A program made the translations under genes and the position numbers. A stretch of 64,000 nucleotides of DNA from Thiosulfativibrio zosterae (lineage in GTDB: Bacteria > Pseudomonadota > Gammaproteobacteria > Thiomicrospirales > Thiomicrospiraceae), in NCBI RefSeq assembly GCF_011398155.1, contig NZ_AP021888.1, positions 62,001 to 126,000 on the forward strand, in the 5' to 3' direction. Of this stretch, positions 42,726 to 54,232 are shown piece by piece (the first letter of the stretch is position 1; each line of letters opens with the position of its first letter). The notes under the pieces are model-generated. The model was not told the origin of the DNA and made no database searches. It worked only from the letters and a program-made list of their open reading frames with translations.

Positions 42726-43349
42726 TTAAGAAAAACTTGCCCAAAGTAATAACGCTAAAACCACGAGCAAAATGGCAACTGCATTTTTCTTGAGCGCGGT
42801 TATCCACTGAAACAAAGGTGCTTTTTGCAATTGTTGCTGCTGATAGCGATTAATTAAAGCCTGCAATTGTGTGGAGTCGGCAGCGGACACTTGTAAATTC
42901 AGGGGTTCGGTTTGGGTGGGGGTTTCGAGGGCGATTGCCAGCGCAAACAACATATCGATGGCTTTAAAAGTGAGCTGGGTTAACAACTGTGCCAGTTCAT
43001 CCACAATCGGCTTTAGGTCTGGGTCCAAAACCTGTGCCGATTTTAGTTGTGCAATTTGGTGGATGGCATTTAGCAAAAAGCCTTCTAGGTTATCTAAATT
43101 AACGGCGCTGGGGCTTTTCACAATTTTCAATAACAACTGCCCATAAGTGGGCGACCAATTATCCAGCAAAGCAACCCAGGGTTTTATGGCTTCTAGTTGT
43201 GTCAAAATTTGCTCAGAGCTTTCTTGCGGTTTTAAATTGAGTAAAGTGGCTTGAATTTGCGGCAATCTGTCCAATAACCAAGTGCGCAGAATTGTCTGTT
43301 GTTGGCTATTAATATCTTCAAAAGTTGAAAACGGGGTTGAATCACTCAT
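42726..43349 (-). CDS. Predicted C-tail-anchored membrane protein, unknown function
   Basis: This 207-residue protein is rich in Leu and Gln and predicted mainly helical, with a single hydrophobic segment at the extreme C-terminus (KKNAVAILLVVLALLLWASF). That suggests a cytoplasmic domain tethered to the inner membrane. The body contains repeated amphipathic helices (for example LQIETDNP is absent here; instead LEAIKPWVALLDNW and LDPDLKPIVDELAQLLTQL). AAGGCGGCATTT before the ATG supports the start. I do not recognise the family. It lies between the 192-bp repeats and the HIRAN reading frame, 68 bp after it on the same strand. Confidence 0.68.
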   Translation of the reverse strand: MSDSTPFSTFEDINSQQQTILRTWLLDRLPQIQATLLNLKPQESSEQILTQLEAIKPWVALLDNWSPTYGQLLLKIVKSPSAVNLDNLEGFLLNAIHQIAQLKSAQVLDPDLKPIVDELAQLLTQLTFKAIDMLFALAIALETPTQTEPLNLQVSAADSTQLQALINRYQQQQLQKAPLFQWITALKKNAVAILLVVLALLLWASFS

Positions 43350-43417
43350 AAATGCCGCCTTGTTTACTGGGTGGGTTGTATTAAATTTGTTAATTGATGG
43401 GGTCTAATGTGCCAGAT

Positions 43418-43864
43418 TTAGTCAGCAGGAGCAAGGTAAATGCTGATGGTCGCATAATGGGGTTTTAAATAATTTAACCGAACCTTAAGGTCTGCATTTT
43501 GGCGCAACCAACTCAATAACTCACCTTTATTGTCTTGTGGCACATAACCCAGCTTTAAATCCTCTGGGGTTAAAACGGCGATGGCATTGGCATCATAAGG
43601 ATTATCGGTTTCAATTTGCAGTTTTAAAGCCTGATATTGCGTTAAATTTGACCAGGCCTGGTTAAAATCATGGTGCATTAAGCCTGCAATGGGCGTTTTG
43701 TGCAGCAAATATCCCCAAGGCGGATTGAGGTTGGCAAGTTGTTGTTTTAAATACGCCCAATCTTGCGGTTCAATCGATTTATTTTTAAACCCCAAGGCTT
43801 CATACAAAAACCACTGCGAACTTTTAGGCACAGGTTTAAGCTGCAAAGTGAGCTCTAAAGGCAA
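43418..43864 (-). CDS. HIRAN-domain segment, C-terminal part of an amber-split PcfJ-HIRAN gene
   Basis: This 148-codon frame ends with a HIRAN-type domain: LKLQIETDNPYDANAIAVL, then LGYVPQDNKGELLSWL. HIRAN domains bind DNA ends or stalled forks in nucleases and helicases such as HLTF. The frame is continuous, in the same phase, with the upstream PcfJ-like frame: only one TAG (43880-43882) and five sense codons separate the stop from the first TTG at 43864. No ribosome-binding site or ATG supports an independent start, so I read it as the C-terminal part of one protein of about 494 residues. A CCAGGCCTGG copy encodes NQAW at 43650. Confidence 0.75.
   Translation of the reverse strand: MPLELTLQLKPVPKSSQWFLYEALGFKNKSIEPQDWAYLKQQLANLNPPWGYLLHKTPIAGLMHHDFNQAWSNLTQYQALKLQIETDNPYDANAIAVLTPEDLKLGYVPQDNKGELLSWLRQNADLKVRLNYLKPHYATISIYLAPAD
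43650..43663. repeat. Uptake-like palindrome copy 10, inside the HIRAN frame
   Basis: Exact GACCAGGCCTGGTT flanked by AAATTT and AAAATC; read as NQAW on the coding strand. Confidence 0.82.
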
Positions 43865-43879
43865 GGTGGCATCGCCCGC

Positions 43880-43882
43880 CTA
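43880..43882 (-). other. In-frame amber codon joining the PcfJ-like and HIRAN frames
   Basis: On the minus strand the reading is YFYH, TAG, then AGDATLPLELTLQ without any shift of frame. A single C-to-T change from CAG (Gln) would create it. It may be a real nonsense mutation, a read-through site or a sequencing error. Confidence 0.8.
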
Positions 43883-44905
43883 ATGATAAAAATAACTCTG
43901 ACCTTTCACCACCTCAGAGCCATAACCCCCCACACAATGCTGCATGGCTTTGCCTTCGTTTTTTAAATCCTTGCCGCTGGTGATGGGCTTTAAAACCTCT
44001 GAACCTGCCAAAGGTGGTTTGGGGAAATCGGCATTTTGTGCCAACTGATTGACCAACTGCCACAAGCAATCTTCCAACTCGTGCCAGTCTGACACCTGCG
44101 CTAAGGCTTTTTGAATTTGTTTTTGTTGAGTCGGTTTGGCCTCTAAAATGATAGGTGGAAAAATGCGATTAATCTCGATTTGCTTAAGCCAGCTTAGGGC
44201 TTGCCACACTTTACCCATCCACAAAAATTCGGGGAGTTTGCGCAATTCGCTCAAGGCACCTAGGCGCACAAACTCGGCATCCGCTAAGACTTGATTAAAC
44301 AGTGGGTTCGCCAACAATTTTAAAAACTGAATCACCTCATTTCGAGAGGTCTGCAAACTATCCAACATCACTTTGCGGGTTTTTAACGCCTGGGTTTTGC
44401 TTAAAGTCACACCGCTTAAACGACTTAAAAATTCTGCTCTGGGTTGCCCAGGTAAACTCAATAAAAAGGCCTCTTGCACGGGTAATGGATGGTTTTGTAC
44501 ATCGGCTAGGGTCCATACCAGTTTTAAATAACCACCGTCTTGAGTTTGTGCCAGTTGACCAACCCATTCGTAAAAATCACGATGATGATGCATTAACCGA
44601 ATCATCATTAACTGTGGCATAGCGGTTTGCCAGCCATTAAGCTGCGCAATGGGTTGGCGATAAACCGTTGAAATCTCATTGACCCAATCCAACCAAATCA
44701 TCGGCAAAACCGCTTTCAATTCATCACGCAACTCACCCTTGCCCACAAAAAAACTACGGTGATAAAAGGTTTCATGTGAAACCCCATACTGATCCTCAAA
44801 CACTCGCAAATCGTTTGACCAAGCATCAATCAAATAAGACTTGCCTGTTCCCTCATCATACAAGGGCAAAGGATAGGGAGATTGGGGTCTTATAGTATTA
44901 AGCAA
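43880..44905 (-). CDS. PcfJ-like protein, N-terminal part, ended by in-frame amber codon
   Basis: This 341-residue protein begins at a TTG (44905) with only a weak ribosome-binding site. Its C-terminal region, from LKNEGKAMQHCVGGYGSEVV to KGQSYFYH, matches the PcfJ-like signature (H-C-V-G-x-Y followed by a Ser/Tyr-rich strand). PcfJ-like proteins are named after a gene of the pCF10 conjugative plasmid; their activity is unknown. The family normally continues past this point, and here the next codons after the TAG do continue it (AGDATLPLEL). The gene is therefore probably interrupted. It follows a small lipoprotein gene by 6 bp. Confidence 0.72.
   Translation of the reverse strand: MLNTIRPQSPYPLPLYDEGTGKSYLIDAWSNDLRVFEDQYGVSHETFYHRSFFVGKGELRDELKAVLPMIWLDWVNEISTVYRQPIAQLNGWQTAMPQLMMIRLMHHHRDFYEWVGQLAQTQDGGYLKLVWTLADVQNHPLPVQEAFLLSLPGQPRAEFLSRLSGVTLSKTQALKTRKVMLDSLQTSRNEVIQFLKLLANPLFNQVLADAEFVRLGALSELRKLPEFLWMGKVWQALSWLKQIEINRIFPPIILEAKPTQQKQIQKALAQVSDWHELEDCLWQLVNQLAQNADFPKPPLAGSEVLKPITSGKDLKNEGKAMQHCVGGYGSEVVKGQSYFYH
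44768..44783. promoter_or_regulatory. parS-like site in the PcfJ-like frame
   Basis: GGTTTCATGTGAAACC, 13 of 16 positions matching the parS consensus. Coding for SHET on the minus strand. Confidence 0.28.
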
Positions 44906-44911
44906 TTGACT

Positions 44912-45118
44912 TTACTCTTTAGGGTCACTGGGACGCTTAATTTGCTGTTGATAGGTTTCATAGGCTGGGTTGATGTTTTCTAAACAGCGTTCTCGTTCAC
45001 TGGGGCTAGCGATTTTATAACACTCATTTTTTTGCCATTCCTGTCCAGATTGATAAGCCATTTGTGGGGTGCAAGCGTGGGTTACGGTTAGCAAAAAGAC
45101 CAAAAAAATTAACTTCAA
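44912..45118 (-). CDS. Small lipoprotein with a CX11C motif
   Basis: The best start is the TTG at 45116-45118, with TTGGAGCCAGTC directly upstream. It gives MKLIFLVFLLTVTHAC, an ideal lipoprotein signal with the lipobox cysteine at its end; the frame opens at another TTG 12 bases earlier. The mature part of about 50 residues contains ECYKIASPSERERCLENINP, where two cysteines 12 positions apart probably form a disulfide. Similar small lipoproteins are common in gammaproteobacteria but have no known role. It is 6 bp upstream of the PcfJ-like frame. Confidence 0.7.
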   Translation of the reverse strand: MKLIFLVFLLTVTHACTPQMAYQSGQEWQKNECYKIASPSERERCLENINPAYETYQQQIKRPSDPKE

Positions 45119-45206
45119 GACTGGCTCCAAGATTTAAATGTTGTGCGCTTAAGGGCTAAATGATTATACAAAAATAACCCAAAGCTTTGCGCGGTGGTTA
45201 ATAAAA

Positions 45207-45454
45207 GAAGGCTAAAGCCTTAGCCCCTGTGTTTTTAAAAATATTGGGGCGCAGGCTTTAGCCTGCTTAGGTTTTTTGGCAATTAAAAAGTTATTTTAGC
45301 GTTTAATTTTGATCAGGCCTGGTTAATTTTAGGTGTTTTGAATGCTTAAAAATGTAAACGGCATGGCGGTAATTTTGAGCGTTGGTTTATGAAAGAAGGC
45401 TAAAGCCTTCGCCTCTTTGTTTGTAACAATTCTGGGGCGCAGGCTTTAGCCTGC
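45207..45454. repeat. Diverged copy of the 192-bp composite repeat
   Basis: Palindromes at 45207-45227, 45246-45266, 45395-45413 and 45434-45454 (188-bp period). The internal order matches the unit at 42.3 kb: GGTTTTTTGGC, a GATCAGGCCTGGTT variant at 45311, GGCATGGCGGTAATTTT, GCGTTGGTTTA. It lies in the 408-bp gap between the small lipoprotein and the peroxiredoxin; nothing else is seen there except the terminator at 45482. Confidence 0.88.
45311..45324. repeat. Uptake-like palindrome copy 11 (one mismatch)
   Basis: GATCAGGCCTGGTT, one base off the core, inside the diverged composite repeat; followed by AATTTT and a second T-run. Confidence 0.7.
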
Positions 45455-45481
45455 TTGGCTTTACTTTATTTTAAGCAAAAA

Positions 45482-45505
45482 AAACCGCTGAAATTCAGCG
45501 GTTTT
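45482..45505 (-). terminator. Terminator of the peroxiredoxin gene
   Basis: AAAACCGCTGAA pairs perfectly with TTCAGCGGTTTT with no spare loop beyond four bases; on the minus strand it is followed by Ts. It lies 34 bp past the stop codon at 45539. Confidence 0.82.
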
Positions 45506-45538
45506 AGGATTGCCTGCTAGGAGAGAGCAATTTGAATA

Positions 45539-46180
45539 TTAGATGGATTTTTTACAGAAGTAAAAATCCACACATTCAAATTCTTTTGATGCCATTCTTG
45601 CTTTGGCTTCTTCAACCGTGGCTGCGGGTGGCACGATGACCTTGTCGCCTGGTTGCCATGCTTCTGGGGTTGCGCAAGCGTGCGCGTCTGATGTTTGCAT
45701 GGCGGTTACTAGGCGAACAAATTCATCCATAGAGCGACCATTGCTCATAGGATAGTACATCATGGCGCGTAGTTTCCCAACAGGGTCGATGATGAAAGTG
45801 GCACGTACCGCTGAGGTATCTGCTGCACCTGGGTGAACCATGCCATAGGCTTTGGCCACTTTCATGTCTAGGTCTGCGATGATTGGGAACTCAATATCCA
45901 CACCAAACTTTTCTTTGATGTTTAAAACCCATGCATTGTGTGAATGGTGCGAGTCGATTGAAAGACCAAGCAGTTCACAATTAAGCGCATCAAATTGCGG
46001 TTTACGCGCTTGGAAAGCCATAAACTCTGTTGTACAAACTGGCGTGAAATCCGCTGGGTGCGAAAATAAAATTAGCCATTTGCCTTTGTAGCTTTCAAGT
46101 GTTTTACGGCCATGCGTGGTGACAGCATCAAAGGCGGGCGCAGCTTCATTTAAGCGGGGTAGTGATACGATATTTTCCAT
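45539..46180 (-). CDS. Peroxiredoxin, Prx6 (1-Cys) type
   Basis: This peroxidase of about 213 residues starts at ATG 46178-46180, preceded by GGAGAAAACT; five extra codons upstream are open but lack a site. The catalytic motif is HPADFTPVCTTEF (PxxxTxxC, Cys near residue 48) with the supporting Arg in AVRATFIIDP. The length and the C-terminal Prx6 extension (PEAWQPGDKVIVPP) distinguish it from AhpC. Further cysteines exist near the C-terminus (FECVDFYFC), so the mechanism may not be strictly 1-Cys. It reduces peroxides in the cytoplasm and could be under the OxyR-like regulator. A 9-bp inverted repeat lies just upstream. Confidence 0.93.
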   Translation of the reverse strand: MENIVSLPRLNEAAPAFDAVTTHGRKTLESYKGKWLILFSHPADFTPVCTTEFMAFQARKPQFDALNCELLGLSIDSHHSHNAWVLNIKEKFGVDIEFPIIADLDMKVAKAYGMVHPGAADTSAVRATFIIDPVGKLRAMMYYPMSNGRSMDEFVRLVTAMQTSDAHACATPEAWQPGDKVIVPPAATVEEAKARMASKEFECVDFYFCKKSI

Positions 46181-46225
46181 AGTTTTCTCCATCATCGTTG
46201 AAAGTATGAGAGGGTGTGTGGCATC

Positions 46226-46265
46226 TCATAAGTTTTGTTTGTTCGTGGATAATATTAACTTATGA
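46226..46265. promoter_or_regulatory. 9-bp inverted repeat upstream of the peroxiredoxin gene
   Basis: TCATAAGTT at 46226-46234 and AACTTATGA at 46257-46265, centre spacing 31 bp (about three turns), 46-85 bp before the start codon. Plausible operator; its sequence differs from the inverted repeat at 1790. Confidence 0.42.
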
Positions 46266-46380
46266 ATTATGTCTTGGCGAATTGTAAGTTTTAATGATTG
46301 AGTTAGTTAAAAACTATAGGGTTTTATTTAATAATAAATATTGGCAATGATTAGCTGTGCGCAACTGCGGTTTCTGAAAA

Positions 46381-46827
46381 TTAAACAACGCTGAGAATAC
46401 CGACTAAAACCGCATAACGCAGCCCTTTGCCGAGGATAACTAGGACAACAAAAAGCCCGAAGTGCATTTTTAAAATGCCGGCGACTAGGGTGAGGGCATC
46501 ACCGATGATGGGTAACCAAGCAAACAAAATACTCCATTGACCATAACGCTGAAAATGCATTTGCGCTTTATTGAGGGTAGGTGGGCGGATGGGAAACCAG
46601 CGTTTATCTTGATAATGAAGCAGATAGCGCCCCAAGCCATAATTGATGATAGAGCCTAAACTATTGCCAAGTGTCGCCCAAAACCACAGAGCCCAAATGT
46701 CATATCCTTGGGCGGCCAGGGTGAGTAAAAAGGCTTCAGAGCCCAAGGGTAACAGGGTTGCGGCTAAGAGCGCAATAACCATTAAGCCCAGATAAATGTC
46801 CCAATTCAGCAGGAAATTAACGGTCAT
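46381..46827 (-). CDS. YqaA-family (DedA/SNARE-associated-like) membrane protein
   Basis: This 148-residue protein has four or five TM helices. LPLGSEAFLLTLAAQGYDIW and ATLGNSLGSIINYGLGRYL carry the Gly/Asn-rich motifs of the YqaA branch of the SNARE-associated/DedA superfamily; LPIIGDALTLVAGIL is the conserved later motif. DedA relatives flip lipid carriers or maintain proton-motive force; YqaA itself has no set function. The ATG overlaps the stop of batD by 4 bp, so it is coupled to the Bat operon. Confidence 0.9.
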   Translation of the reverse strand: MTVNFLLNWDIYLGLMVIALLAATLLPLGSEAFLLTLAAQGYDIWALWFWATLGNSLGSIINYGLGRYLLHYQDKRWFPIRPPTLNKAQMHFQRYGQWSILFAWLPIIGDALTLVAGILKMHFGLFVVLVILGKGLRYAVLVGILSVV

Positions 46828-48527
46828 TTTTGTGGGTAAAGGGCTTGTAGTTGCGGTTTTTGTTGAGCCTTTTCTGCGGTTTGTGGTTGATTAATCAGGT
46901 CGCAAATTTTAATGAGTAGTCCATCAGGTAACGCTTGCTGATGAAATAAATGCGCCTTTAAGGGTTTTAGTAATTTCGTCAGTTCTGGGTTGTTTTGTAG
47001 GCCTGACTGGTTTTGTAAATACTGATTAACCCAGCGATAAAAGTCTGCAGGTGTTTGGTTGGCATCGCATTGGGAATGATTTGTGGGTGTAGGGCTGATT
47101 TGAGCGTCAACATTAATGGGTGCTAACGCCAACTGCGAAAGTTGTTTTTTGAGTTTGCGGGTTTGTTGCCATTGCCAAATCCATGCGCCCAACAGCAGCA
47201 CAACCAAACCACTTAACGCTAACTGCATGGTGTTTGAAAATGGTGGAGCATTTGCAACATGGGTTTCATGTGGAACCAAAGTATCTGGCAAAGCATTGGG
47301 CATATTGCTAGCGGGTGAAGGCGCTGGAAGACTTGGGTTATTGAGTGCTGGCAAAACCTGTAAAGTTTTGGCGGGTAGCTGTGCGGTTTCTAAGGTTTGG
47401 GTTTGTGTATTCCACCAGTTAAGCGTAATGGCAGACAGGGTTAGGGTGCCGGCTTGGGTGGGAATAATCGCCATTTTAAAGAGTTTTTCACTTCGGTAAC
47501 CATCTAAAGCGGCTTGCTCATGGGTTTGTGGTTGGTCAGGGTAAATTTGTAAGCCTGTTTGATTTTCAAAAGCCAGCGCGGGTAATTGCGAGCCCAATTG
47601 CCCCAACGCGTTGAGTTTGATGGTGCGGGTTAAGCTGTCGCCCACATGCAATTCATTTTGTTGTGAATTGGCGGTTTGCCAGGTTTCAGAAAGGCTGATG
47701 TTTTTGGCGGGTAACCAGTTGGCTTGCGCAGGAAAAGAGCTCGGTTTTTGCAGCACTTGTAAGGTGAGTTTTTCCGAGTTGTCATGAATGGCACGCAGTT
47801 GACTGCCCAATTGCAAACGACCGGTAAAGTCTTGGGGAGCAATCACCAGTTCGCCGCTTTGCTGGGGATAGAAGGCATAACTCCACTCAAACACTTCATA
47901 GATTTGACCATTGATTTTCTTTTGATATGTCTGTTGGTTTTTGAGTTGTTTAACCAGCGAGTCGCCAAATTGTGGGGGTCGAATACTGCCATCAACCAAA
48001 CGACCGAGATGAAAAAATCGCAAGTTATAAATGACTTCTTCTTGCACATAGGCAGAGGTCTTGTTCAATTCTGCTTCGATAAAAGTGATTTGATTTTGTG
48101 TGCCATAAGCCTTGGCTTGAGTTACGCGTATGGCTAAAGGATTACTGCGCGCGCCTTCCACTTCAAAACTGGGAATGCGCAGTTCACCGGTTTGTTTAGG
48201 CGTCATCTGTGCCAGCCATTCGGTGGTGGAACTGTATTGACCATTGATGATTTGCATATTGGAACTGCGTTGCGAACCTAAGACATCAAACTGATCTTTT
48301 AGGGCTTCAAAATCAGGGGAGGCGGCATAGCTTTGGAAGTCGGCAATGACGCGCACACTGATAATATCGCCCATTTCAATTTGCCGATTATCGACTTCTG
48401 TGACCAGGGTTTTTGCCCAGGCCTGGTTAAAATTGGCGCTGAAAACCCCCAAAAAAAGACTCAAAAATAACAGATGTATCCAACTGCGTTGGCGATGGCT
48501 AAAGTGCTTGTGACCAGTGTGAATCAT
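46824..48527 (-). CDS. batD: BatD-family protein
   Basis: This protein of about 567 residues starts best at ATG 48525-48527, 4 bp after the batB stop; the frame is open further upstream inside batB. A signal sequence (RSWIHLLFLSLFLGVFSANF) leads into a periplasmic beta-rich region of about 400 residues containing VDNRQIEMGDIISVRVI and YAFYPQQSGELVIAPQDFTG, then a TM helix (NTMQLALSGLVVLLLGAWIW) and a cytoplasmic tail. BatD is linked to aerotolerance and envelope stress in the Bat system and works with the VWA proteins encoded upstream. A CCAGGCCTGG copy encodes NQAW at 48415. Confidence 0.88.
   Translation of the reverse strand: MIHTGHKHFSHRQRSWIHLLFLSLFLGVFSANFNQAWAKTLVTEVDNRQIEMGDIISVRVIADFQSYAASPDFEALKDQFDVLGSQRSSNMQIINGQYSSTTEWLAQMTPKQTGELRIPSFEVEGARSNPLAIRVTQAKAYGTQNQITFIEAELNKTSAYVQEEVIYNLRFFHLGRLVDGSIRPPQFGDSLVKQLKNQQTYQKKINGQIYEVFEWSYAFYPQQSGELVIAPQDFTGRLQLGSQLRAIHDNSEKLTLQVLQKPSSFPAQANWLPAKNISLSETWQTANSQQNELHVGDSLTRTIKLNALGQLGSQLPALAFENQTGLQIYPDQPQTHEQAALDGYRSEKLFKMAIIPTQAGTLTLSAITLNWWNTQTQTLETAQLPAKTLQVLPALNNPSLPAPSPASNMPNALPDTLVPHETHVANAPPFSNTMQLALSGLVVLLLGAWIWQWQQTRKLKKQLSQLALAPINVDAQISPTPTNHSQCDANQTPADFYRWVNQYLQNQSGLQNNPELTKLLKPLKAHLFHQQALPDGLLIKICDLINQPQTAEKAQQKPQLQALYPQK
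47262..47277. promoter_or_regulatory. parS-like site in batD
   Basis: GGTTTCATGTGGAACC, a near-palindrome related to parS with several mismatches. Coding for PHET on the minus strand. Confidence 0.25.
48415..48428. repeat. Uptake-like palindrome copy 12, inside batD
   Basis: GCCCAGGCCTGGTT; exact core, one arm base changed, read as NQAW. Confidence 0.8.
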
Positions 48528-48531
48528 AGGG

Positions 48532-50658
48532 CTACCATATTTTGTCATTAGGCTGAGCTTTGCTCGGCGCTTGTTGTTGGTATTGATAATCAAATTTTCG
48601 TTTTAAAAACAGTTGCGGTTCGTCTGGAATTTGGTTCAGCCAAGTTTGGGTGGCTTGTTGTTTTTCGGTTTTGCCTAATGCGGCAGCACTGCCCATTTGA
48701 CCTTGTGCTTTCAGCGCTTCTTGATTGAGGTCAGTATCGCTTTGCTCGCCCAATTTTGAAGGTTGTTCGCCGTTTTCATCAGAGTTTTCAAGTTTCTGTT
48801 GGGTGTCTGCGGCTTGAACTGATTCTTGGTTCATGTCTTGCCCCGCTTGCTGACCGCCGGCTTGAGCGTTTTCTTGACCTTCTTTGGCCGCATCGGACTC
48901 ACCTTGCTGTTGGGCTTGTTCACTGCCTTGGCTTTGTTCTGAGTTTTGTTGGGCATTTTTATTGGGCGTTTCACCGGCATTTTGTTTGGCTTGTTGTTCA
49001 GCGTTTTTATCCCGCGGATCGGTAGATTGCCCGCCATTTTTTAAATCATTATCGGCATTCGGTTGTGAATTTTGGCTGTTATCTTTTTGCGCATTCTGCT
49101 CATTAGAAGGTTTGGGGGTTTGCGCATTTTGCCCAGCTTGTTGATTAGGTTTAGGGGGCTCAGTTGGCTTTTGTTGATTAAGGATTTGCTCAATTAAGTC
49201 CAGGTTGTCTTGGGCTTGTTTAAAATTGGGTTGTTGTTTGAGAGCGGCCTCATAAGCGATTTTGGCTTCATCAAGTTTGCCTTGTTTGGCTAAGGCATTG
49301 CCAAGGTTGTAAAAGCCTTCAGGGGTTTTTACCCGCGCAAATTGTTCGGCGGCTTTGGCATATTGCCCCAATCGATACAAGCTGGCGCCTTTCCATTCGG
49401 CGGATTCAAATCGGGTTTCGGCACGGGCATAGTCTTGCTTTTCAAACAGTAAATAGCCTTGGCGATCGGGGGTGATAAAGGCATCGGTAAAAGACAAGCC
49501 GGTATCGCGTTTTTCGCCAATCAGTTCTGGCATAAAAGATTTAGAGGGTTGCGCTTTTTGTTCGGTGGTTTCTGTTAAGACTTCCTCTGCCGCATAAACC
49601 GTTGGGGTAGGTTGTAAAAAAACCAAGCTAACAGGCAATGCCACCCAGCTAAGTAACCAACCTCTTCTAAAAGCCAAAGCGGCTAAAACCACCAAGCCCC
49701 AAAGTAACCAAACACCTTCTTCAATCCAGGCATCTAAATAAGGATTTTGCGTGGTGTTTTCATCATCACCTGCTTTGGTAGCGGTTTGGCTGGTGACCAG
49801 TGTTGGTGGCAAAAGAGTATCTACATCACTGTTGTTTAAACTGAGTAGCTGGAGTGGGCTGTCTAACTCATTGGCGAAATCTTGCAGGCGTTCAAGGGGC
49901 AGTTTGGGTAGCACAATACGGCCTTCCTCATCTTTTAGCAGACCAAAATCTGGGATTTTAACAGGGCCACCTAGCGCGGTTCCAACCCCATAAATGGCTA
50001 GGGTTAGGTTGTTTGAGTTAAAGAAATCTTTAAGGGTTTCTTCTTGCTTAGGCTCTAAATCATCGGTAATCCAAATAATGTGGCCTTGTTTAACCTGTGC
50101 ACCTTCAATTAAATGCTTGGCCAATTCCATCGCTTCTAAGGGGTTAGCGCCATAATTGGGCATCATGGTGGGCGATATATTGGGCAAGAGTCCTAGCAGG
50201 GTTTGATTGTCTTGTGAAATGGGGGTTAGGGTGTGTGCAGAACCGGCATAAACCACCATGCCGACCGCCATTTCTGGGTGTTGGGTGAGCAGGTCACGCA
50301 GTTTGAATTGGGCGCGACTGAGGCGATTGGGTTTAAGGTCGTCTGCCAACATAGACAGTGATAAATCAAAGACCACAACGGTGCCTTGCAAGTTACTTTC
50401 GGCGGGCATTTTCACTTGCTTCCAAGTGGGGCCGCTCAGTGCAATGATGGCTAACAACCAAATCAGCCCGAGGCCCACCAAAGGCCAAAGTCTGGGTGAA
50501 CTTTCGGTGTTTTGCGGTAACAATAGCGTTTGAAATTGCGGGGCAATCACTTGCGACCAAGCGCCTTTTTGTTGTTCTTGGCGAAATAAACGCCATAACA
50601 GCAGCACTAAAGGCAGTAGGGCTAAGAGCCAAAGAGGGCGCACAAAATGTAAGTCCAT
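48532..50658 (-). CDS. batB: BatB/BatC fusion: VWA membrane protein with TPR and low-complexity tail
   Basis: This protein of about 708 residues starts at ATG 50656-50658, sharing one base with the batA stop and preceded by AGGAAAAGC. N-terminal TM helices (RPLWLLALLPLVLLLWRLF; LVGLGLIWLLAIIALSGPTW) flank a VWA domain with the metal site VVFDLSLSM (DxSxS) and a matching Asp in WITDDLE. A third TM (WIEEGVWLLWGLVVLAALAF) leads to TPR repeats (GKLDEAKIAYEAALKQQPNF) and a stretch of about 150 residues rich in Gln, Asn, Glu and Ala, then a short C-terminal part. In many bacteria BatB and BatC are separate genes; here they form one protein. It is coupled to BatA and BatD and probably forms an envelope complex. 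Confidence 0.88.
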   Translation of the reverse strand: MDLHFVRPLWLLALLPLVLLLWRLFRQEQQKGAWSQVIAPQFQTLLLPQNTESSPRLWPLVGLGLIWLLAIIALSGPTWKQVKMPAESNLQGTVVVFDLSLSMLADDLKPNRLSRAQFKLRDLLTQHPEMAVGMVVYAGSAHTLTPISQDNQTLLGLLPNISPTMMPNYGANPLEAMELAKHLIEGAQVKQGHIIWITDDLEPKQEETLKDFFNSNNLTLAIYGVGTALGGPVKIPDFGLLKDEEGRIVLPKLPLERLQDFANELDSPLQLLSLNNSDVDTLLPPTLVTSQTATKAGDDENTTQNPYLDAWIEEGVWLLWGLVVLAALAFRRGWLLSWVALPVSLVFLQPTPTVYAAEEVLTETTEQKAQPSKSFMPELIGEKRDTGLSFTDAFITPDRQGYLLFEKQDYARAETRFESAEWKGASLYRLGQYAKAAEQFARVKTPEGFYNLGNALAKQGKLDEAKIAYEAALKQQPNFKQAQDNLDLIEQILNQQKPTEPPKPNQQAGQNAQTPKPSNEQNAQKDNSQNSQPNADNDLKNGGQSTDPRDKNAEQQAKQNAGETPNKNAQQNSEQSQGSEQAQQQGESDAAKEGQENAQAGGQQAGQDMNQESVQAADTQQKLENSDENGEQPSKLGEQSDTDLNQEALKAQGQMGSAAALGKTEKQQATQTWLNQIPDEPQLFLKRKFDYQYQQQAPSKAQPNDKIW

Positions 50659-51728
50659 TAAGCTTTTCCTCCACGAGCTGTGCGTCGCCAAGCCAAGATA
50701 AAACTGAGCAATAAAGCAAGCCCTAAAGGCCATTGAAAGAGTTCGGTGCGTAAACGATAGTGGTTCACTTCGTGTTCGGTGGCTTCAAGTTGGTTAATGG
50801 TTTGATAAACCTGGTCAAGTTGCGCCGTGTCTGCTGCGTGGAAAAATTGGCCATTGGTCAATTTGGCAATTTTTTGCAAACTGGCAATATCCATGTCATT
50901 ACTGCTAAGGTTTAAAAAAGCGTCTATGCCCGTTAAACGCTGTTGGCCACCGATGCCAATGGTGTAAATTTTTAGCCCCATTTCTTGGGCTTTTTGCGCC
51001 GCATCGATGGGGTCAACCGCGCCGGCGGTGTTTGAGCCATCGGTGAGTAAAATCAATACGGTTTTCTTTAAAGCGTTTTCGGCACCCGATTTTGCGTGAA
51101 TTTGGCGCAGGTGTTTGAGGGTGAGCCCTATGGCATCCCCAATGGCGGTGTTATTACCTGCCATGCCAATTTGCGAGTCGTTAAGCAGGGTTTGCACGGT
51201 TTTAAGATCGTAGGTGAGCGGACTTTGCAAAAAGGCTTGGGTACCAAATACAATCAGCCCTAAACGGTCGCCTTGGCGCTCGCCGATAAAGTTTTCGACC
51301 ACACTTTTTACCGCCATTAAACGGTCAGCAGGATGGCCTTCAACCCGCATATCTTGTTTTTCCATGGAACCCGACAGGTCGACTGCCAACATCATGTCTT
51401 TGCCGCTTTCTTCAAAAGGCGTTGGGGTTAAATACCAAATAGGGCGCATGGCGGCCAAGATGAGTAACCCCCACAATAAAATTAAAAACCAAGAGATGCC
51501 CGCCGATTGGGTATTGGGCGCCAGCCAACCTTGCGATTGATTGGCACGGTTAAAGCGTTGTAATAGGTGGGGCGCTAATAATGGAATTTGGGTTTGTTCG
51601 GCGGGTTTCCAAAGCAGGCGCACTATCCAAGGCAAAGGCAGAAATGCCACCATCCATGGCCAAATAAAGCTGAGATTTTGCCAGACAGACACCCAGGTGT
51701 GAAAGTTGAATAGGCTCAAAAAAGTCAT
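50658..51728 (-). CDS. batA: BatA-like VWA-domain membrane protein
   Basis: This protein of about 356 residues starts best at ATG 51726-51728, sharing one base with the stop of the upstream gene; the frame runs eight codons further upstream. TM helices at the N-terminus (FIWPWMVAFLPLPWIVRLLW), a second (WFLILLWGLLILAAM), the VWA domain with the MIDAS motif MLAVDLSGSM and the supporting Thr/Asp in LTDGSNTAG, and a C-terminal TM (WPLGLALLLSFILAW). Bat proteins are tied to oxygen tolerance and envelope integrity and are thought to depend on the MoxR ATPase encoded upstream as a chaperone. Confidence 0.9.
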   Translation of the reverse strand: MTFLSLFNFHTWVSVWQNLSFIWPWMVAFLPLPWIVRLLWKPAEQTQIPLLAPHLLQRFNRANQSQGWLAPNTQSAGISWFLILLWGLLILAAMRPIWYLTPTPFEESGKDMMLAVDLSGSMEKQDMRVEGHPADRLMAVKSVVENFIGERQGDRLGLIVFGTQAFLQSPLTYDLKTVQTLLNDSQIGMAGNNTAIGDAIGLTLKHLRQIHAKSGAENALKKTVLILLTDGSNTAGAVDPIDAAQKAQEMGLKIYTIGIGGQQRLTGIDAFLNLSSNDMDIASLQKIAKLTNGQFFHAADTAQLDQVYQTINQLEATEHEVNHYRLRTELFQWPLGLALLLSFILAWRRTARGGKA

Positions 51729-52261
51729 TATTTGTGATGTCCCTTCATCCAAGCTTGCGCATAATCAATCACGCCAGCCAGTTGCTGTGCGGAAATGGGT
51801 TGGGTTTGATAACTGGCCGCCATCAAGTCGGCAAGATTGTCAGGCTGGTCGATGTAAATCGCCGTGTCTTGCAAAAAATCAATCCAGGCTTGACCGGTTA
51901 AAGGCGCAACGCGTTGTCGCCCATAATGGGTAATCGCCACTTGTTTAAGCAAATGATTAAGTGCCATTAATTTAGCGGCAGGTTCAGAGTGTTGTGCCAG
52001 CGTAGGTTGCAACAGTGCCAAAGCCTCGCGGCGATAACGATTGTTTTGGTGACGCACCCAATAGTACCAAGTTAACCCCACGAGAACACCTAATACCCCA
52101 ACAATGACCGCCCAAATAGAGTTGGCTAAAGGCCACCAAGACACTGGGTCTGGGAGTTGAATGTCATGCAATTGTGCCAGCAGGGCTTGCTGGGCTGGTT
52201 CAGCTAATTTGGCCAAATTGGCAGGCGCTAGGTTTGGAGATGCTGAATCAAGGTCGGCCAT
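51728..52261 (-). CDS. DUF4381-family membrane protein
   Basis: This 177-residue protein has a short periplasmic start, one TM helix (SIWAVIVGVLGVLVGLTWYYWV) and a helical cytoplasmic domain containing YRREALALLQP and TGQAWIDFLQD. It matches DUF4381, often found between DUF58 and BatA genes. No biochemical role is known. Its ATG shares one base with the DUF58 gene's TAA, and its own TAA shares one base with the batA ATG. Confidence 0.86.
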   Translation of the reverse strand: MADLDSASPNLAPANLAKLAEPAQQALLAQLHDIQLPDPVSWWPLANSIWAVIVGVLGVLVGLTWYYWVRHQNNRYRREALALLQPTLAQHSEPAAKLMALNHLLKQVAITHYGRQRVAPLTGQAWIDFLQDTAIYIDQPDNLADLMAASYQTQPISAQQLAGVIDYAQAWMKGHHK

Positions 52262-53160
52262 TAACGCAAGACTCCTTGTTTAAATAAACTTTCTGCAGCT
52301 AGGTCAGCGGTCGAAACACTTAACAGCGGTACTTTTAAACGCGCCATTTGTTGTTGAAGCGCTTGCCATTCTGTTTGATACAAGCTCGCGTAGCCGTCGC
52401 GCAATTGGCGGTCAGCAGCATTTAACTGTTGTTCATTTATGCCATCGCTGAGGCGCACTTGCCCAAGGTTGGGCAAATCCTTTTCTAAGGGGTCAAAGAC
52501 ATGAATCGCATTGATATCACAATGGCGCTTCAAGGTTTGTAACACCCCAAATCCTTCCGCTGGGAAACCCATAAAATCCCCTAAAAGCATCAATTTTTGA
52601 CCAGGCCTGGTCATTTTTTGAAGCTTTTTGAGGGCTTTTAGCCAATCACCGGCATCGCTCACATTGGGTTTTTTGAGCGCTTGCTGGCATTGCAGCCCCG
52701 CATGAAACAATTGCATTAAGGTTTGTTGTTGATGTTTTGGGTCAATCCAAATGCTGTTTTGATGATTAAACACCAAACCGCCCACCTGATCACCTTGATT
52801 TAGGGTTGCCCAGCCCAGTGCCGCCAAAATATGCAAAATTTGATCGGTCTTAAAACGATGCTTAGAGCCAAAAAAACAGCAGGGCGTTTGTTCAACCACA
52901 AACAACACCGGTTTATCGAGTTCTTCACTGAACACTTTGCTGTGGGTTTCGGTGGTGCGGGCGCTAACTCGCCAGTCTATGTGGCGAACATCGTCACCTG
53001 CTTGATATTGTCTGACTTCTTGAAACTCCATACCGCGGCCTTTACGCAGCGCACGATGCCCACCGCTTTTTTGGAGGTTTTGCTGGTGTGCCAGTTTGCG
53101 GTGTTTCACATGGAACCGAATCGCCAGTAAATCTTCAAGGTTTGAGTAGGCAGAAATCAT
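52261..53160 (-). CDS. DUF58-family protein (VWA-like), partner of MoxR
   Basis: This 299-residue protein contains the DUF58 signature GRGMEFQEVRQYQAGDDVRH followed by IDWRVSARTTETHSKVFSEE, and later LGDFMGFP and a VWA-like fold. No TM segment is seen, so it is cytoplasmic. It probably bridges the MoxR ATPase to the membrane VWA proteins. It is 15 bp downstream of the MoxR gene and overlaps the next gene by one base. A CCAGGCCTGG copy at 52599 is read in a different frame here (TRPGQ), unlike the QAW copies elsewhere. Confidence 0.9.
   Translation of the reverse strand: MISAYSNLEDLLAIRFHVKHRKLAHQQNLQKSGGHRALRKGRGMEFQEVRQYQAGDDVRHIDWRVSARTTETHSKVFSEELDKPVLFVVEQTPCCFFGSKHRFKTDQILHILAALGWATLNQGDQVGGLVFNHQNSIWIDPKHQQQTLMQLFHAGLQCQQALKKPNVSDAGDWLKALKKLQKMTRPGQKLMLLGDFMGFPAEGFGVLQTLKRHCDINAIHVFDPLEKDLPNLGQVRLSDGINEQQLNAADRQLRDGYASLYQTEWQALQQQMARLKVPLLSVSTADLAAESLFKQGVLR
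52599..52612. repeat. Uptake-like palindrome copy 13, inside the DUF58 gene
   Basis: Exact GACCAGGCCTGGTC followed by ATTTTTT and a second T-run starting 13 bases after the core. Confidence 0.87.
53102..53117. promoter_or_regulatory. parS-like site in the DUF58 gene
   Basis: TGTTTCACATGGAACC, 13 of 16 positions matching parS. Coding for RFHVKH. Confidence 0.28.
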
Positions 53161-53175
53161 AGGTTTTGTTGCAAG

Positions 53176-54135
53176 TTAAACCACAGGAACCAGCGTTAGG
53201 ATTTCATCAATCACTTGATCAACGCTCATGCCTTCCGCTTCTGCTTCAAAACTCAGGAGTAAACGGTGGCGTAACACATCATGCACCACCGCCTGAACTT
53301 CTTCTGGGGATACAAAATCTTGCCCTTTAAGCCACGCCAAGGCTCTTGCCGCACGCGATAGGGCGGCGGTGGCTCTTGGGCTAACGCCATAGTCAATCCA
53401 GCGCGCTAAGCGTTCGCTGTAGTTTTGCGGTTGGCGGGTGGCAATGACCAATTCAACAATATAGGTTTTAACGGCTTCTGCCATATGAATATTAAGAATG
53501 GCTTCACGAGCGGTGAATAAATCAGCTTGCGAAACGGCTGGCGGTTTAACAATTTCGTGTGCTCGGGCTTCATTTTCAATGAGTTCTAAAATAAGGCGTT
53601 CGCTGTGTTTATCTGGGTAATCGATTTTGAGGTGCATTAAAAAACGGTCAAGTTGCGCTTCGGGGAGCGCATAGGTGCCTTCTTGCTCAATGGGGTTTTG
53701 GGTAGCCATGACCATAAACAGTTTTTCTAGAGGCAGGGTTTTGCCGCCCACACTCACTTGATGTTCTGCCATGGCTTCTAGTAAAGCCGATTGCACTTTT
53801 GCTGGCGCACGGTTAATTTCGTCTGCCAAAATCAGGTTGTGAAATATAGGCCCAGCTTGAAATTCAAAAGTGCCTGTGGCGGCTCGATAAATATCCGTTC
53901 CGGTAATATCGGCAGGCAATAAATCAGGTGTAAATTGAATGCGCTGAAAGTTGCCTTCAACCACTTCGGCTAGGGTTTTGATGGCTTTGGTTTTTGCCAG
54001 ACCTGGCGGGCCTTCTACCAACAGATGTCCATCACACAATAAGGCCATCAACATGCGTTGTGTTAGGTGCGATTGGCCAATAATTTGTTGGTCTAGGTAG
54101 TTTTGGAGTTGTTCAAATTTTGTAGAAAGTGACAT
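53176..54135 (-). CDS. MoxR-family AAA+ ATPase
   Basis: This AAA+ protein of about 319 residues starts at ATG 54133-54135; the longer frame uses a TTG. Walker A is EGPPGLAKTKAI, Walker B LADEINRAPAKVQSALLEAM with sensor 1 in VMATQNPIEQEG, and the C-terminal helical domain has GVSPRATAALSRAARALAW. MoxR ATPases act as chaperones that load metal or mature VWA proteins. It is the first gene of the seven-gene series running to yqaA. Confidence 0.93.
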   Translation of the reverse strand: MSLSTKFEQLQNYLDQQIIGQSHLTQRMLMALLCDGHLLVEGPPGLAKTKAIKTLAEVVEGNFQRIQFTPDLLPADITGTDIYRAATGTFEFQAGPIFHNLILADEINRAPAKVQSALLEAMAEHQVSVGGKTLPLEKLFMVMATQNPIEQEGTYALPEAQLDRFLMHLKIDYPDKHSERLILELIENEARAHEIVKPPAVSQADLFTAREAILNIHMAEAVKTYIVELVIATRQPQNYSERLARWIDYGVSPRATAALSRAARALAWLKGQDFVSPEEVQAVVHDVLRHRLLLSFEAEAEGMSVDQVIDEILTLVPVV

Positions 54136-54232
54136 GGCAATACTTACTTTAGTAATGAGATGTTTCAATTATAAAGCAAATACTCAAACGAGACAGCCAT
54201 CAACCTTGAGGATAGTTTGAAAGCGCCCAATA

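Follow-up and report, generated by a model that had tools for sequence, protein, structure and literature searches.

A PcfJ–HIRAN gene of Thiosulfativibrio zosterae, probably interrupted by a recent nonsense mutation

The interrupted frame and its intact homologues

The stretch of Thiosulfativibrio zosterae DNA analysed here (the window, 64,000 nucleotides) carries on its minus strand a single reading frame that runs from a TTG at 44905-44903 to a TAA at 43418-43420, and whose sole interruption is an in-phase TAG at 43880-43882. The TTG lies 6 nt past the stop of a small upstream ORF and is followed by 341 codons before the TAG, then by 153 sense codons and the TAA; apart from the TAG, the frame contains neither a stop nor a shift. 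The features of the locus are as follows.

43418-44905, minus strand: complete coding frame of the ancestral PcfJ–HIRAN gene, with a single amber codon inside it (495 codons including the amber, plus TAA), colinear with two intact 505-aa homologues
43880-44905, minus strand: truncated ORF of 341 aa, with the N-terminal region and the first half of the PcfJ domain (from the ORF list, Pfam and the alignment)
43880-43882, minus strand: in-frame amber TAG; both close homologues have Trp in that column
43418-43879, minus strand: tail after the amber, with the end of the PcfJ domain and then HIRAN (153 codons plus TAA)
43727-44011, minus strand: PcfJ domain, which spans the amber (approximate; model limits chosen by us)
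43487-43696, minus strand: HIRAN domain (PF08797, 37.3 bits; the structure model of an intact homologue matches HLTF HIRAN structures)
43862-43864, minus strand: TTG, possible re-initiation site for a 148-aa protein, separated from the amber by five codons and preceded by a Shine-Dalgarno (SD)-like site
42726-43349, minus strand: ORF of 207 aa with a hydrophobic C-terminal stretch (by eye), homologous to a gene that neighbours PcfJ–HIRAN where the latter is intact

A full-length match to the frame was found in three of the 62 genomes of the order, namely the window's own, with its one TAG, and those of Thiomicrospira microaerophila ASL8-2 (G032) and Thiomicrorhabdus marina 6S2-11 (G065). In the latter two, the protein is encoded by an uninterrupted 505-aa ORF that starts with ATG and is colinear with the window frame from end to end; the alignment with a 505-aa homologue continues across the stop and covers residues 13-493 of 495, with 44% identity (E 8.5e-117). 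An earlier note on this DNA had read the locus as one gene split by one in-frame amber codon and had suggested a search for intact homologues of about 494 residues. Our results confirm this reading, as the frame is exact and two such homologues exist, both colinear and both with a sense codon at the position of the stop. That there was one ancestral gene follows from these two relatives together with three distant genomes in which both domains lie in one frame.

The same note had proposed a CAG-to-TAG change, and here the comparison leads elsewhere. The amber column is occupied by TGG in the two close homologues, and a CAG ancestor was rejected for this reason; judged from this alignment, the lost codon was most probably one for Trp and not for Gln, a residue deduced from these two homologues, since the distant three have diverged too far at that column to be of help.

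Position of the stop and state of the tail

Pfam recognises PcfJ (PF14284) in the part before the stop, with 27.4 bits against a cut-off of 25, and HIRAN (PF08797) in the part after it, with 37.3 bits against a cut-off of 24.7. The PF14284 score is thus at or over the cut-off in the window ORF and in both intact homologues (25.0 bits, exactly at the cut-off of 25, and 27.9 bits), but the window copy differs from the family in being fused to HIRAN and cut within the domain. The amber had been taken as the boundary between PcfJ and HIRAN, yet it falls inside the PcfJ domain: our own PcfJ model (length 101) matches on both sides, with positions 2-49 before the stop (47.9 bits) and positions 52-101 after it (32.9 bits). 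Our PcfJ and HIRAN models omit the window row, although the alignment from which they derive was made with it. The PcfJ domain is thus incomplete in the 341-aa product, where the stop cuts our model at about half. The end of the Pfam match was dropped as proof of truncation, for it lies at profile position 101 of 147 whether or not the amber is read through, and the match also ends early in the intact T. marina protein (103, compared with 141 in T. microaerophila, 138 in G185 and 140 in G319).

An AlphaFold2 model of the T. microaerophila protein has a mean pLDDT of 57.4, with ten-residue block values of 70-89 from residue 361 onward and moderate values of 63-68 over residues 341-360, near the amber column. 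This column corresponds to residue 349, which follows a strand at 344-348 and precedes strands at 359-365 and 372-378 and a helix at 387-400. Given this position among the strands of the model and the split match of our own PcfJ model, the amber most likely cuts the PcfJ fold itself. The N-terminal half is poorly modelled (pLDDT below 50 for residues 1-56 and 94-193), and we therefore draw no function for it.

Among the best 50 of 482 matches in a fold search with this model were protein lp_0118 (3k2y, E 1.1e-6), which was the top match, and the HIRAN domain of HLTF (4xzg_C, E 4.2e-5). PCNA folds also appeared among these 50, but we disregarded them because their probability was at most 0.18 and their rmsd about 16-19. 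The resemblance to HIRAN PF08797 and to the HLTF HIRAN structures 4xzg and 4s0n is therefore one of both sequence and, for the model of the intact homologue, fold; the difference is that HIRAN is here fused to PcfJ and is neither standalone nor joined to a helicase. The HIRAN region of the window tail also matches PDC-M03B, a candidate defence protein of PADLOC (E 2.3e-11), with a best stretch at model positions 137-214 of 250, which is the shared HIRAN part alone. For the intact PcfJ–HIRAN proteins we found no family in NCBIfam, and the matches in PHROGs were only to families of unknown function. According to PMC11090510, the HIRAN domains of prokaryotes are uncharacterised but likely to bind DNA.

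The tail resembles its homologues at least as closely as the part before the stop does. Before the stop, the T. microaerophila and T. marina proteins are each 41.8% identical to the window frame; after it, the values rise to 46.7% and 47.7%, respectively. The two homologues share 55.0% with each other in the columns before the stop and 57.1% in those that follow. Around the lesion the respective values are 54.5% and 50.5% for the last 99 compared columns before the stop, and 61.0% and 52.5% for the first 59 columns after it. The codon signature, derived from 45 reference ORFs of the window picked by hand from the ORF list, is equally good on both sides, with +0.371 bits per codon in the tail and +0.319 before the amber; the other two frames of the strand give -0.797 and -1.103. 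Together with the alignment that continues across the stop, this speaks against a merely coincidental open frame after the amber. No decay is thus visible in the tail at the level of sequence, which would fit a very recent stop just as well as continued translation of the tail.

Continued translation or loss of function

An undecayed tail would also be expected if the amber were a base-calling or assembly error and the gene whole in the living genome, and the absence of any other stop or shift from the frame agrees with this. We nevertheless regard such an error as very unlikely, because the assembly is a single contig rated 100% complete and because a single wrong base rarely lands exactly on a nonsense change.

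The tail could also have been preserved by read-through of UAG, programmed or through a suppressor, yielding a regulated full-length protein. Several observations speak against this. The amber column holds a sense codon, TGG, in both close homologues; the stop is therefore not conserved, and neither is any recoding. RF1 is encoded in the genome (548.1 bits, cut-off 423.25), and TAG serves as the normal stop of four of the 45 reference ORFs (TAA of 34, TGA of 7). The base after the TAG is G, while typical read-through contexts favour C. No CUA anticodon occurs in the 36 tRNAs recovered, an incomplete list (150 of 226 candidates scored) that contains no tRNA-Ile, and a pattern search for a CUA tRNA gave five matches, two of them inside tRNA-Glu genes and three that are not tRNAs according to ARAGORN; within that incomplete list and that pattern search, no suppressor tRNA came to light. 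Taken together, these points make read-through highly improbable.

A third way to keep the tail in use is gene fission, in which ribosomes would stop at the amber and re-initiate at the TTG at 43864 to give a working 148-aa HIRAN protein, with the 341-aa half lost or altered. The SD-like site of this TTG has a computed duplex energy of -5.7 kcal/mol (against a generic anti-SD sequence) and is stronger than that of 83% of 29 ATG-start ORFs of the window, controls in which the first ATG of each ORF was used and which may therefore understate true SD strength. The statement in the earlier note that the second part has no credible start was consequently too strong, given a site that is equalled by 17% of these ORFs. 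Fission would also be in keeping with the conserved tail and its intact codon signature, and with the HIRAN-only open frames that are common in relatives, many of them of 114-158 codons (range 63-295); we also counted in its favour a second HIRAN-only open frame, of 133 codons, elsewhere in the same genome (G000:C1:608194-608364). However, the new protein would begin in the middle of the PcfJ domain and not at a domain boundary, an equally strong SD site precedes 8.8% of 840 internal start-like codons and may thus be due to chance, and the column of the TTG is TTT, which is no start codon, in both close homologues. Fission therefore seems unlikely to us.

The locus most likely represents an ordinary loss of function and not a novel mode of decoding. 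When the close homologues were examined for what is expected of a pseudogene, both of the two proved to be whole and colinear, with a sense codon where the window frame is interrupted. A PcfJ–HIRAN gene that was once intact would have gained one nonsense codon, presumably by point mutation of a Trp codon, and translation from the TTG at 44905 would now give a 341-aa fragment without the end of the PcfJ fold and without any of HIRAN, so that the joint function of the two would be lost. The change would be recent, since the tail shows no visible decay.

Spread of the fusion and its gene neighbourhood

PcfJ matches occur in nine of the 369 genomes drawn from the class, the window's own counted. 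According to Pfam, both domains lie on the same ORF in G185 (721 aa) and G319 (658 aa), and PcfJ occurs with HIRAN absent in G363, G004, G120, G359 and G384; at the locus of G167, the eighth PcfJ genome of the class, which was left out of the Pfam scan, our own models gave no match. With the same models, both domains were found on one 708-aa ORF in G678, among 398 genomes drawn from the phylum, a set whose further PcfJ-region matches (G507, G612:C66, G654 and G667) stood outside the locus comparison. The fusion is thus present in at least five genomes besides the window's (G032, G065, G185, G319 and G678), so that the combination, which the earlier note had not seen described, is not confined to this locus. 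Among the loci compared, most of which have flanks of just about 1.5 kb, 12 genomes have PcfJ genes that lack HIRAN and the five besides the window's have the fusion, with T. microaerophila having both; wherever PcfJ and HIRAN stood on different ORFs, the locus was a copy of the gene in the window. On this basis we rejected an ancestor with two separate genes. Homologues that were always separate genes would have spoken against a split gene, and the existing intact fusions show that this is not so.

We conclude from these sequences that PcfJ–HIRAN is a genuine fusion that recurs across genomes, and that the gene is uncommon. The T. microaerophila protein had no relative in plasmid, phage and viral contig collections, and the first half of the window gene had none in a collection of genome contigs; another scan returned only T. 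microaerophila and T. marina. Matches to the 721-aa protein of G185 were found on four Thermus plasmids and cover 15-16% of the protein. In the open-licence literature of PubMed Central, PcfJ is hardly mentioned, and we found there neither a description of a PcfJ–HIRAN fusion nor anything on PcfJ together with BREX. In G019 (C5, 4432-12695), a gene with PcfJ alone has a WYL regulator on one side and BrxA, BrxB and BrxC on the other, with one further ORF after the PcfJ gene.

Both PcfJ and HIRAN are often seen near anti-phage systems. A cassette of four genes surrounds the intact fusion in two genera, in different order. In T. microaerophila (C38, 11629-17405) the order is a type IIG enzyme of the MmeI type (915 aa), a small putative membrane protein, PcfJ–HIRAN and RlaP; in T. 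marina (C8, 7218-13866) it is an MmeI-type enzyme (918 aa), RlaP, a small hydrophobic ORF, the putative membrane protein and PcfJ–HIRAN. The enzyme and RlaP were named with Pfam and PADLOC, the membrane protein was called by eye and has no family match in Pfam and NCBIfam, and RlaP is presented in PMC7824862 as an RNA-repair nucleotidyltransferase. RlaP was found in two of the 62 genomes of the order, the same two that have the whole PcfJ–HIRAN gene. Together, these four genes possibly form an undescribed defence module; to judge from its neighbours, the role of PcfJ–HIRAN would most likely be in defence.

Compared with this cassette, the window has homologues of two genes, PcfJ–HIRAN and the small protein, in swapped order. 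Its 207-aa ORF shares 29.7% identity with the small protein of the relatives over 148 residues (tblastn, E 1.4e-13). Profile searches gave no match for RlaP or MmeI_Mtase in the window's genome, and tblastn found neither MmeI nor RlaP within the 64-kb window at E 1e-2. The window pair and the T. microaerophila cassette both lie downstream of a matching operon, whose genes we take to be moxR–bat (six of six proteins matched; window 42726-54168, G032:C38 4576-17405), which suggests a shared site or hotspot. In T. marina the cassette occupies a different site, next to a ubiA-like gene and beyond atp genes and glmU (names by eye).

In the preferred reading of a recent nonsense mutation, which we consider likely, the mutation would probably have struck a relic of such a type IIG/RlaP cassette. 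The role of the intact protein would most likely have been in an anti-phage restriction cassette, with HIRAN as its nucleic-acid-binding part, as judged from the neighbours in relatives. Since the MmeI-type IIG enzyme and RlaP are unmatched in this genome, the gene would now be a relic under weak or no selection, and the cassette partners may also never have been present here. A further reading combines early gene fission, with the amber and a fortuitous SD–TTG giving rise to a selected HIRAN protein, with PcfJ–HIRAN as an undescribed accessory of a type IIG/RNA-repair defence cassette; we think this combination quite unlikely. If true, it would show one PcfJ–HIRAN protein becoming a separate HIRAN protein, seen early, still made and selected.

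The amber codon itself is ordinary; the more useful result is that PcfJ is repeatedly fused to HIRAN, in at least five genomes besides this one. The type IIG/RlaP cassette in two fusion genomes, together with WYL regulators near the fused genes of two others (G185 and G678), suggests a testable function for the little-studied PcfJ.

Within the order, the profile of the small protein matched five of the 62 genomes, three of which had served to build it. The match in G023 has a 1299-aa Eco57I/MmeI-like enzyme as its neighbour, and in G076 no restriction-like neighbour was seen by eye. An MmeI_Mtase match in G060 (C1:305298-305888) contains an in-frame TAA, so that this type of restriction gene seems to be broken there too.
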